DNA from: Hyphomicrobium sp.
GTDB taxonomy: Bacteria; Pseudomonadota; Alphaproteobacteria; Rhizobiales; Hyphomicrobiaceae
Reading direction: 5' to 3'
Assembly: GCA_030598645.1 (NCBI GenBank)
Contig: JAUVPN010000161.1
Span: 1-6,493 of the forward strand
DNA: 6,493 nt
The number at the start of each line of letters is the position of its first letter. Positions within the stretch are counted from its first letter, which is position 1. The notes under the pieces were generated by a model. That model searched no databases and was not told the origin of the DNA. It was given only the letters and a program-made list of their open reading frames with translations. This document shows positions 2,831 through 6,493 of this stretch, piece after piece. Made by a program: the position numbers and the translations under genes.

Positions 2831-3519
2831 CCCGCCAACTTCCGCAGGCCGCTTAAATTGTGGATGCTCACCGTGCCTCATTGCAGGGTCAGCAGATTTT
2901 GTTCCCGGAGCTGTCGAAGGACCCGGTTGACGTGAATGTCGCTGAGCCCGAGAGCATCAGCGATGATAGACTGCGTGAGGGGATGCTCGAATTGCGTCTC
3001 GATCGCGAGCCCGACCAACCTTAGCCGTTCAGCGAGCTCCAGGAAGAAGTGGGCTGTGCGTTCTAGGGCGGTTCTTCTGCCAGTACTCACGAGATGCTCG
3101 ACCACCATTGCCGCGTCTTGGGATGCGGACCACAGGAAGGCTGCGCCGAGACGAGGGAACTTGTTGAAAATTTCTAGCATCCGCGGAGCTTCGACAGCAC
3201 TGAGCACCACATCGGTCAAGGCGGAACACGAGTGATCCGACGTCCGCAGTAGAAGACTGCGCAGACCAATGCAGTCTCCGGGAATCGGAAATCTAATGAC
3301 CTGGCGGCTGCCGTCGGGCAGGATCTTGAAGCTACAGCCCCAGCCGCTCTGCAAGAGGAAAGCCTTCTGACCGGTCTGTCCTTCCTCTATAATGACGTGC
3401 CCGCGCTTAATCTTGAGGGGCTTGGACTGAAGATCGGCCAGGACGCCAAGTTCGTCCTTTGACATCTCCACAAAGCTGTTGAGCTTTTTGGCCAGCGCGC
3501 TGTCAACTTTTGCATCCAT
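2827..3519 (-). pseudogene. Crp/Fnr-family transcription regulator with premature stop and lost 3' end
   Basis: The product binds a small ligand and DNA as a dimer in the cytoplasm. Up to TGA 2878-2880 it has about 213 residues. These include a cyclic-nucleotide-type beta-roll (about residues 35-120: GHVIIEEGQTGQKAFLLQSG, then FPIPGDCIGL), a dimer helix (about 140-170: AALERTAHFFLELAERL-like) and a helix-turn-helix (LTQSIIADALGLSDIHVNRV). It lacks an Fnr-type N-terminal cysteine cluster. After LLTLQ comes TGA, yet the same frame goes on GTVSIHNLSGLRKLAGY (2877-2827), which is the usual Crp wing and C-terminal helix. A CGA-to-TGA change would explain this. Beyond 2827 the frame is just antisense of the integrase, so the last residues are missing. 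ATG 3519 is used; a GTG at 3522 is also possible and both have poor ribosome sites. A shortened protein could still be made, without the wing that contacts DNA. Confidence 0.7.
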
Positions 3520-3560
3520 CACCGGCAGCCGTTCCGTCGAAAGGCCCCTTAATAGCGGAG

Positions 3561-3590: not shown

Positions 3591-3636
3591 GAAGTGGACC
3601 GCAAGCTTCTTATCGCGTGTTGCGATATCCTGGAGA

Positions 3637-3665
3637 ATGTCCGCTTTCGGGGGTAAAGCGAACAT
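3637..3665. repeat. palindromic repeat, copy 1 (MSAL..KADI type)
   Basis: ATGTCCGCTTT pairs with AAAGCGAACAT across a CGGGGGT centre, with one mismatch. Its reverse complement closely matches copy 2 at 4837-4865, including the CTTTACCCCC centre and the CATTCTC flank. The minus strand reads MFALPPKADI, the plus strand MSAFGGKANI. From memory such palindromes are scattered through Bradyrhizobium and related genomes. It lies between the Crp/Fnr and FimB-like genes. Confidence 0.65.
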
Positions 3666-4466: not shown

Positions 4467-4526
4467 AAGGAGCGCCGAAAGATGGCGCGCAAATTGACTC
4501 AATTCATCTTGTACAGCGCCGGTTCC

Positions 4527-4565
4527 AAAAAAGAAGGCACCGGTCTACGGGAGAAGACCGGTGCC
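4527..4565 (-). terminator. intrinsic terminator (T1)
   Basis: A perfect 11-pair stem (4555-4565 with 4536-4546) and an 8-base loop are followed on the minus strand by TTCTTTTTT (4535-4527). The plus strand has no T-tract after the stem, so the signal is one-directional. Confidence 0.75.
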
Positions 4566-4629
4566 CAAATCTGCCACCATGCTCACGGGGGAATGGCGAG
4601 CTTCCGCGAGGGAGAGCGGAAAGGTGGCT
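4527..4629 (-). ncRNA. candidate small RNA 1 with C-rich loops and its own terminator
   Basis: The minus strand shows a promoter-like pair (see 4636-4663) predicting a start near 4629. The RNA would begin with GCCACC (4628-4623), which pairs with GGTGGC (4578-4573). Inside, TTCCGC/GCGGAA (4621-4616 with 4607-4602) holds the loop TCTCCCTC. A weaker GCTC/GAGC stem encloses a CCCCC loop. The 3' end is an 11-pair stem (GGCACCGGTCT with AGACCGGTGCC) holding the loop TCTCCCGT, followed by TTCTTTTTT. The length would be about 103 nt. Loops with UCUCCC are complementary to Shine-Dalgarno sequences and resemble the CCUCC-loop small RNAs known in alphaproteobacteria (for example the Rhodobacter CcsR group). 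No protein frame in the region is convincing. Homology to a named family is not claimed. Confidence 0.5.
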
Positions 4630-4635
4630 TTGTCT

Positions 4636-4663
4636 GACATAGGCAGGGATCGCCGTTGGTCAA
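4636..4663 (-). promoter_or_regulatory. promoter-like boxes for small RNA 1
   Basis: TTGACC (4663-4658) and TATGTC (4641-4636) are 16 bases apart on the minus strand. The predicted start falls at the first base of a stem of the candidate RNA, and the -35 box begins eleven bases after the preceding terminator. Confidence 0.45.
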
Positions 4664-4679
4664 CACCGAGCCGAAAATG

Positions 4680-4802
4680 CAAAAAGGGCACCGGTTCGCA
4701 GGGACTGGAACCGGCACCCCAACTTGCCGTAAAGAAGGAAGGCATCTTCCGCTAGGGGGATCAAACGGAAGGTGCCCATTCTCAGGTTCGCAGGGCCCCC
4801 GC
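4680..4802 (-). ncRNA. candidate small RNA 2, tandem upstream unit
   Basis: A promoter-like pair at 4808-4837 predicts a start near 4802 and T2 ends the unit at about 4680, giving about 122 nt. The unit has one internal hairpin (GGCACCTTCCG at 4776-4766 with CGGAAGATGCC at 4751-4741) holding a TCCCCCT loop, then the terminator hairpin with a TCCC-containing loop. CCCTGCGAACC occurs twice, at 4795-4785 and 4703-4693. The plan, an internal C-loop hairpin followed by a GGCACCGGT-type terminator, parallels small RNA 1 and suggests duplication. The internal hairpin has one A-C mismatch on this strand and an interrupted T-tract after it, so it may also be a weak terminator. Confidence 0.42.
4681..4719 (-). 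terminator. intrinsic terminator (T2)
   Basis: A 12-pair stem (4708-4719 with 4686-4697) encloses a 10-base loop and is followed on the minus strand by TTTTTGCATTTT. Two positions are G-U wobbles in the minus-strand RNA but A-C mismatches on the plus strand, which identifies minus as the transcribed strand. Confidence 0.65.
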
Positions 4803-4807
4803 TAAAC

Positions 4808-4837
4808 GTTACAGCAGGCGAGCTCCCGTGATGCCAA
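4808..4837 (-). promoter_or_regulatory. possible promoter of small RNA 2
   Basis: TTGGCA (4837-4832) and TGTAAC (4813-4808) lie 18 bases apart on the minus strand. The -35 box abuts the palindromic repeat at 4837-4865. Moderate match only. Confidence 0.3.
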
Positions 4838-4865
4838 TGTCCGCTTTACCCCCAAGAGCGGACAT
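4837..4865. repeat. palindromic repeat, copy 2 (MSAL..ADI type)
   Basis: ATGTCCGCT (4837-4845) pairs perfectly with AGCGGACAT (4857-4865). It reads MSALPPRADI on the plus strand and MSALGGKADI on the minus strand. It is the inverted relative of the copy at 3637-3665, so the two bracket the recombinase gene and the small-RNA region. Confidence 0.75.
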
Positions 4866-4882
4866 TCTCGAAGGCGGTCTAA

Positions 4883-5270: not shown

Positions 5271-6493
5271 ATGACTGCTCTGTTTAGAACAATATCCAAT
5301 TTAGCTGGGATCAAGGCTGGAGGCCAAGTTGCGCAAGCCCTGCTCTCGCAAGTTCGCAAGTTGCGTCAAGGAACCTCCCCCGATGGTTTGCGCAGCGATC
5401 AGTCCTATCGGGTCAAAGAATTTTCCGACCTGCCGAATTATCGGGCCATCGTAAATCATCGATCTAGGGCAAAATTATTTGGGGTGGCAGATCCTTTCTA
5501 CCGCTGCCACACCGCAGTGTCGGGTGCCAGAACACATATCGACCGCAAATCATGTGTTAATTTTGCATCTTACGATTATCTTGGTTCTAATGGGCATCCG
5601 GCAACGAGGGCGGCTGCAGAGACAGCTACCAATCAATTTGGCACCTCGGCTACAGCAAGCAGAATTGTCGCCGGCGAGAGGCCTGTGCACCGGAGCCTAG
5701 AAAATGGGCTTGCGCAAGTCTATGGCGTGGAAGATGCGATTGCCTTTGTCAGCGGCCACGCGACCAATGTTTCAACTATCGCGACACTGATGGGGCCGGG
5801 TGATCTCATTGTTCACGACGAACTTATGCATAACAGTGCACTCACGGGCGCAAAGCTGTCTCAGGCCACGTCTCACAGCTTTCGCCATAACGATCTTTAC
5901 GACCTCGAGAGACTGCTTTGTGAAGAGCGAGCAAAGTACAAGAACGCGCTCATAGTGGTCGAGGGTCTGTACTCGATGGATGGCGACATCCCTGATCTTC
6001 CAAGATTGATTGAGCTTAAGCGACAGTATGGCGCATGGCTGATGGTAGATGAGGCGCATGCCCTGGGCGTCCTCGGTGCCACAGGACGCGGCAGTGCTGA
6101 GCACCATGATATCGACCCGAGACAGGTCGACATTTGGATGGGCACACTGAGTAAGGCACTGGCCTCTTGCGGCGGCTACATCGCAGGCAAGAGAGAGCTC
6201 ATTGAGATCCTGAAGTTCAACGCCGCGAGCTTTATCTATTCGGTTGGACTTTCGCCCCCGTTAGCTGCGGCTGCTAAAGCTGCACTAGACCTCATGAGGG
6301 AGGAGCCTGAGCGGGTAAGGCGCTTACAAGAGAATGGTCGGCTGTTTCTCAACGAGGCGAAAGCTGCAGGCCTCGATACCGGTCATAGCGAAGGTTATGC
6401 CGTGGTGTCCGTAATGATCGGCGACATGTACAAGGCGGTGAAGCTGTGTGAGCGGCTACTAGATCGCGGCGTCAATGCATTGCCGATCGTCTA
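5271..6493 (+). CDS. alpha-oxoamine synthase (AONS/SPT family, PKS-associated type), 3' end outside window
   Basis: This PLP enzyme family condenses an amino acid with an acyl-CoA or acyl carrier protein thioester and releases CO2, giving an alpha-amino ketone. 407 codons are visible from ATG 5271 (AGAGG five bases upstream) with no stop; perhaps 40-60 are missing. Residues 1-85 are an N-terminal extension longer than in biotin BioF. The fold-type I core follows: FASYDYLGSNGHP (98-110), GTSATASRIVAGE (124-136), SGHATN (161-166), His187 which should stack on PLP, EGLYSMDGDIPDLP (231-244), VDEAHALGVLGATGRG (259-274, with Asp260 for the PLP nitrogen and His263) and Schiff-base Lys295 in MGTLSKALASCGGYIAG. 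SVGLSPP and the EPERVRRLQ helix match oxoamine synthases linked to polyketide or carrier-protein pathways better than BioF. Substrate unknown. The upstream NifA/sigma-54-like sites suggest symbiotic expression. It appears to open an operon running off the window. Confidence 0.88.
   Translation, partial: MTALFRTISNLAGIKAGGQVAQALLSQVRKLRQGTSPDGLRSDQSYRVKEFSDLPNYRAIVNHRSRAKLFGVADPFYRCHTAVSGARTHIDRKSCVNFASYDYLGSNGHPATRAAAETATNQFGTSATASRIVAGERPVHRSLENGLAQVYGVEDAIAFVSGHATNVSTIATLMGPGDLIVHDELMHNSALTGAKLSQATSHSFRHNDLYDLERLLCEERAKYKNALIVVEGLYSMDGDIPDLPRLIELKRQYGAWLMVDEAHALGVLGATGRGSAEHHDIDPRQVDIWMGTLSKALASCGGYIAGKRELIEILKFNAASFIYSVGLSPPLAAAAKAALDLMREEPERVRRLQENGRLFLNEAKAAGLDTGHSEGYAVVSVMIGDMYKAVKLCERLLDRGVNALPIV

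Follow-up and report, generated by a model that had tools for sequence, protein, structure and literature searches.

The locus

The window, by which we mean the whole stretch of 6,493 nucleotides analysed, carries a tRNA-Ser gene (1461-1552) followed by an integrase frame (1636-2856) with matches to the arm and middle domains and no catalytic-domain match; together these are perhaps the remnant of an integrated element. Further along lie a gene for a Crp/Fnr-family regulator (2878-3522; cNMP_binding and HTH_Crp_2 domains), 1 kb from the RNAs described below, a tyrosine recombinase gene (frame 4492-3803), and a gene for a PLP-dependent aminotransferase class I/II domain protein that is cut by the window end (5271-6491). 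Inverted copies of a ATGTCCGCTTT-like repeat, at 3633-3665 and 4837-4869, bracket the segment that contains the RNA pair and the recombinase gene.

From 4840 to 4525 the minus strand holds two units, each closed by a strong hairpin and then T's. A previous inspection of the letters alone, here called the sequence-only reading, had described this segment as promoter, RNA and terminator twice over. Both terminators stood, as did a candidate promoter for the second unit (RNA-B), while no convincing promoter was seen upstream of the first (RNA-A). The features are as follows.

4837-4869, strand unassigned: copy of a dispersed palindromic repeat (ATGTCCGCTTT-like), on the upstream side of the RNA pair
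about 4775-4679, minus strand: RNA-A core, a long hairpin with GATCCCCCTA in its loop, plus T2; probable weaker tandem paralogue
4719-4686, minus strand: terminator T2
4663-4636, minus strand: candidate promoter of RNA-B, TTGACC-N16-TATGTC, proposed from position and likeness in a relative (L055)
4628-4526, minus strand: RNA-B, about 103 nt, two C-loop hairpins enclosed by a closing stem, with a terminator hairpin after them
4628-4623, minus strand: 5' arm of the RNA-B closing stem P1, GCCACC, pairing with GGTGGC at 4578-4573; predicted +1 at 4628
4608-4615, minus strand: loop of RNA-B hairpin 1, TCTCCCTC
4595-4587, minus strand: loop of RNA-B hairpin 2, CATTCCCCC
4578-4573, minus strand: 3' arm of P1, GGTGGC
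4565-4536, minus strand: stem of terminator T1, loop TCTCCCGT at 4554-4547

T1 is formed by GGCACCGGTCT and AGACCGGTGCC in the 11 perfect pairs that had been claimed for it, with TTCTTTTTT after it, and a terminator scan of both strands between 4300 and 5000 listed it first of four terminator-like sites, at 12 pairs (shuffled sequences gave 0.8 sites). T2, GGGTGCCGGTTC with GAACCGGTGCCC, has the 12 pairs and the TTTTT previously described, two of the pairs being G-U; it was not listed by the scan, and in the predicted fold three extra pairs shorten its loop to TCC. The predicted fold also contains the GCCACC/GGTGGC closing stem, and the C-rich loops named in the sequence-only reading are all present, along with one that it had missed, that of hairpin 2. 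Both units fold more stably than shuffled sequences, at z -4.7 for 4520-4660 and z -4.3 for 4675-4830 (RNA-A), none of 200 shuffles being as stable in either case. The four window frames that overlap or adjoin the RNAs gave no Pfam match. It is very probable that the window contains the gene of a small regulatory RNA whose family is absent from RNA libraries.

Relatives of RNA-B and their distribution

DNA comparison with 103 genomes of the taxonomic family placed relatives of the RNA-B part at two sites in genome G435 and three in G477, the best at E 1e-11 and 1e-10, and short matches at E 0.001-0.007 in five further genomes. At E 0.01, R1, a covariance model made from six sequences, picked up 27 matches spread over 11 of the 103 genomes, and RNA-B, itself a seed of the family model, scores 105.8 bits with it. 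For a second model (R2), the 17 matches that scored 41 bits or more were taken as rows, and L080, L072 and L082 (40.2, 38.2 and 37.8 bits; E below 1e-7) were left out. R2 found 18 matches in four of the eight genomes of the nearest genus. Wider searches gave matches in nine of the 103 family genomes at E 0.001, in six of 397 genomes of the order, and in one of 289 genomes of the class, the last being the seed genome itself; because these searches scored 10-39 candidates per genome, the absences are soft. Across 589 kb of fetched sequence (13 stretches of G285, 16 of G474 and one each of G415 and G303, some selected because a match was already known there), the 11 matches of R2 at E 0.1 all fell at known places.

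In all, 34 matches at E 0.05 were retained, comprising the 17 R2 rows, picked by fit, and 17 weaker ones, among them L081 (30.7 bits), L089 (41.7) and L080 (45.1). Mechanically called frames of at least 90 aa overlap 16 of the relatives' matches; ten such overlapping frames were tested, and nine had no domain. The tenth, in L066, carries a TctC domain, and L066 is probably a false match. A coding nature for the family was rejected, since the 17 members run from 93 to 114 nt in length steps not divisible by three. Judged by these covariance models, RNA-B belongs to a family of structured RNAs with multiple copies in the lineage of the window (Hyphomicrobiales, perhaps Hyphomicrobium-like).

Other routes to relatives gave less. 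A plasmid collection gave no DNA match. The recombinase gene, used as an anchor, led to 29 loci, none titled Hyphomicrobium or near kin, and eight genomes of those loci yielded only chance-level RNA matches (E 0.18 or worse). A search with a flanking protein found nothing in 190 class genomes. The window protein at 1346-744 is 76% identical to a protein of G477 and was matched in seven of the eight genomes of G435's genus, all except G435; in a protein collection it has 34 relatives with identity up to 83%, the one from Hyphomicrobium sp. at 39%. These matches place the host in the Hyphomicrobiales and probably in G435's genus, the description Hyphomicrobium-like drawing on that one named relative.

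A predicted junction with C-rich loops

In an alignment of the 17 R2 rows, 18 of 27 pairs show a two-sided change in one member or more, amounting to 44 cells. Paired cells make up 91.8%, compared with 83.0% after shuffling of partners and 36-46% after sliding; this alignment was fitted to the model and its structure, and its rows are the model's own, picked by fit. An unfitted six-row MAFFT alignment carries a weak signal, with 86.3% paired against 84.4% when shuffled (43 of 500 shuffles as high) and two-sided changes at five pairs, where shuffles give 3.2. Its covariation score was reached by nine of 500 shuffles, and its count of further pair types lies below the shuffled mean; here the rows are misregistered at hairpin 2, and the terminator stem is displaced by bulges. 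When the R2 members were folded singly, a closing stem, at least two hairpins within it and a 3' hairpin appeared in all 17, compared with 18 of 850 shuffles. The loops of these members are 68% C (264 of 391 bases), against 33% elsewhere in the RNAs (445 of 1350) and 45% in the loops of shuffles. The sequence-only reading had proposed that homologous loci be examined for stems that covary around loops that stay C-rich, and RNA-B bears this out across its 17 members in the model-fitted alignment, with little signal in the unfitted six rows. One member, L079 (1501-1610), folds three C-loop hairpins within its closing stem, the sole such case among the 17.

The weaker matches are less uniform: three form the junction (L080, L082 and L089), several have one hairpin, and L072 has no junction. 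Because only these three of 17 form it, our confidence in the explanation favoured below is lowered slightly.

RNA-A matches R1 weakly (29.3 bits, E 8e-7) and scored 32.4 bits in a further family-model search, in which no source but the window had two matches, many of the sources being pieces of 3 kb or the ends of contigs. Its predicted fold forms no junction. It has no DNA relative at E 0.01 in the 103 family genomes, where matches begin at query base 161. Despite the predicted fold, the model scores suggest that RNA-A is probably a weaker paralogue of RNA-B.

Promoters and FNR/FixK boxes

The candidate promoter of RNA-B has the letters and spacing given in the sequence-only reading: TTGACC (4663-4658), 16 bases, TATGTC (4641-4636), and then seven bases to the GCCACC of P1. 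Between 4300 and 5000 a strict scan for sigma-70 promoters detected none, and the proposal therefore draws on position and on likeness to L055 (G477), where TTGACC-N16-CACGTC stands at an equal distance from the RNA. The -10 regions read CCTATGT in the window and in L054 and CCCATAT in L058, which presumably would fit an RpoH-type promoter; such a promoter was not adopted for the family, as these regions fit a sigma-70 promoter equally well.

Upstream of several relatives lies a motif resembling an FNR/FixK box (TTGAT-N4-ATCAA-like). Six positions were examined in each of the 33 members that have upstream sequence (L083 has none), and boxes matching at least nine of ten letters occur six times in these 198 positions where 0.016 would be expected (Poisson p 2e-14). 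The expectation derives from nine boxes counted over 113,759 background positions in these loci, coding DNA included, and the motif had been noticed in these upstream sequences before the counting, L089 having joined later with R2. Over the 120-base upstream stretches there are eight boxes in 3520 positions, only two of them outside the six-position window. With the first P1 base as +1, the boxes are centred at -41.5 in L062, L075 and L081, at -42.5 in L076, at -43.5 in L089 and at -44.5 in L080, so that six of the 33 members have a class II-like box near -41.5. The six come from four genomes (three from G474 and one each from G415, G477 and G435), and five of them fold the full junction. Neither RNA-A nor RNA-B of the window has an FNR/FixK box upstream.

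In Sphingopyxis granuli, most Fnr-activated promoters are reported to have the box at -41.5, with slight shifts (PMC7713065), and the three member boxes at -41.5 coincide with this class II position as reported there for alphaproteobacterial Fnr. The agreement in position supports a predicted transcription start at the first P1 base. As a separate observation, a perfect TTGATGGATATCAA precedes the RNA by about 105 bp in L056 and by about 101 bp in L057, and the L056 locus also contains phaC.

Comparison with known RNA families

On the window, Rfam matches up to E 1 consisted of the tRNA-Ser and, antisense to it, a plastid family below its threshold. The Infernal search against Rfam that the sequence-only reading had called for was run on 36 sources, including all 33 with members, with matches listed up to E 1 or 2; only tRNAs reached the gathering score, and no sRNA family did so. 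Among the sub-threshold matches, ar7 appeared once at 24.2 of 60 bits and BjrC80 once at 20 of 80 bits. The family was found neither in any Rfam model nor among the papers listed by the literature searches (for four of them the best 10 of 678, 15 of 66, 10 of 30 and 15 of 46 entries).

The closest parallels are in the Rhizobiales, where the ar14/NfeR1 and cuckoo RNAs are described as having several hairpins with C-rich anti-Shine-Dalgarno loops that are kept while stems vary, some of these RNAs being multi-copy (PMC10746234, PMC3927594). They differ from the present family, in which a closing stem joins the hairpins into a junction and no Rfam match was obtained; moreover, the ar14/cuckoo loop word CCUCCUCCC occurs nowhere in the RNA of any of the 34 members, CCUCC being present in 15 and CUCCC in 23. 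CcsR1-4 of Rhodobacter sphaeroides (RF02791) share C-rich loops and a 3' hairpin and are reported to share an RpoH-driven transcript with the gene of a DUF1127 protein (PMC10253847). This operon partner marks a difference, as DUF1127 was found in none of the ten window frames of 64 aa or more; with the CcsR1 model, five relatives score 19.5-24.2 bits against a gathering score of 65.3, and the window is not listed.

For BcKCsr2 (RF02883; Bc_KC_sr2 of Burkholderia cenocepacia, reported to be raised by iron depletion, PMC10987360), one relative comes near the threshold: L081 (1470-1603) scores 36.5 of 40 bits at E 9e-6, followed by L089 at 18.4 bits, with no other source, the window included, listed. 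The L081 match begins 31 bases before its P1, in promoter sequence, where it pairs poorly, and the agreement lies mostly in the terminator. The actinobacterial 6C RNA (RF01066) has two hairpins with C-run loops, and L062, L064 and L080 score 26.9-30.3 bits with its model; the gathering score of 47 is not reached, and that model has no closing stem. FnrS of enterobacteria, from another class of bacteria, is a small RNA activated by FNR, as is proposed for the boxed relatives.

The family therefore probably works like the anti-Shine-Dalgarno RNAs, yet by these tests it is not a member of any listed family. The sequence-only reading had likened the loops to those of stress-related anti-Shine-Dalgarno RNAs of other alphaproteobacteria; the likeness probably holds for the way of working, and not for membership. 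As for the link to stress, none was found, and the relatives' promoters suggest low oxygen instead. The family would add a structured, multi-copy group of sRNAs whose closing stem and junction scaffold were unmet among the anti-Shine-Dalgarno RNAs compared.

Neighbouring genes and dispersed repeats

The genes that adjoin the family copies differ from copy to copy. Eleven of 20 neighbouring frames tested in relatives have a Pfam match below E 0.001, with domains including PhaC, PNPase, MutM, PhoU, H-NS, PP2C and universal stress protein, and this variety speaks against a leader of one gene. It bears directly on the idea that RNA-B acts as attenuator or structured leader for the downstream recombinase gene, which lies on the same strand, its longest frame starting about 34 bases after the RNA-B end. 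Relatives adjoin genes of other kinds (PhaC, PNPase, MutM, H-NS and PP2C domains), and in several the downstream frames are convergent, with Pfam support in L075 (MutM) and L078 (H-NS); we regard such a leader as very improbable.

The multiplicity of the copies, and the closeness of the window pair to both a dispersed repeat and a recombinase gene, would also suit a repetitive hairpin element that has spread by transposition and has no RNA function. The ATGTCCGCTTT-like repeat, at up to two mismatches, has 22 copies in G435, three in G229 and one in G270, as counted in 249 genomes (the order of an uncultured Pseudovibrio genome) in the search that led to G435, and a copy also lies upstream of an RNA relative in G477. 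Mobile repeats are usually near identical, and for this reason the great divergence of the family copies, which keep their pairs, counts against a mobile element, as do boxes at a fixed distance from the stem. A functionless element of this kind appears improbable.

Proposed anti-Shine-Dalgarno pairing and mechanism

The complements of the window loops were compared with the five-letter words that precede the first ATG of 316 frames from other genomes of the group, relative to those before 1605 internal ATGs, with the first ATG taken crudely as the start. Seven of the 11 complements (AGGGA, GAGGG, GGGAG, GGGGG, GGGAA, GGGGA and GGAGA) rank 2-20 of 1024 words, one ranks 45, and three rank 253-327. 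The enrichment has p 1e-6 when judged against all words and only p 0.006 when judged against words matched in composition; words taken from the loops themselves rank 172-945. When the genomes were taken singly, using a slightly altered set of loops, G474 showed the enrichment more clearly than G285, whose top word is GGAGG. As far as predicted folds and crude starts allow, the RNAs thus present unpaired C-rich loops complementary to words enriched before starts. Ribosome binding sites are accordingly possible pairing partners of these loops, and we infer that they serve as such here. Pairing of NfeR1 with a ribosome binding site has been reported for ntrB (PMC10746234).

Protein sponges also carry several similar loops on one scaffold, as this family does, and the C-rich loops might accordingly bind a protein rather than mRNAs. 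The enrichment of loop complements before starts argues otherwise, and no loop-binding protein was identified; we consider a sponge unlikely.

The explanation that we favour, and think likely, is that RNA-B, and probably RNA-A, are sRNA genes of a multi-copy family that acts by base-pairing to block ribosome binding sites, a subset of the copies being activated at low oxygen; for the family, transcription, pairing, repression and regulator are all inferred. Transcription would start at the first P1 base and stop after the C-loop terminator hairpin, and the junction would present two or three single-stranded C-rich loops. By pairing with G-rich ribosome binding sites, these would prevent the translation of several mRNAs. 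Family copies would have come under different promoters: a subset would respond to low oxygen through an activator of FNR/FixK type, and RNA-B of the window would run from a promoter lacking an FNR/FixK box.

A broader proposal, offered tentatively as a realistic possibility, is that a Hyphomicrobiales lineage expanded one junction-type anti-Shine-Dalgarno RNA into dispersed genes, several of which were wired directly to FNR/FixK to form an oxygen-controlled brake on translation that would reach many mRNAs. The oxygen-regulator sites of several relatives, placed just where they would activate transcription, suggest RNAs that restrain protein synthesis at low oxygen, and boxes at the class II position predict that some copies rise as oxygen falls, in dependence on FNR/FixK. 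If true, oxygen sensing would be tied to broad translational control in alphaproteobacteria.

A minor observation concerns four matches (L085, L121, L122 and L123) that have in common an upstream conserved stretch, containing AGTGCCCCCC and GTCT between CGG and CCG arms; it gave no Rfam match and is perhaps a second C-loop RNA family.
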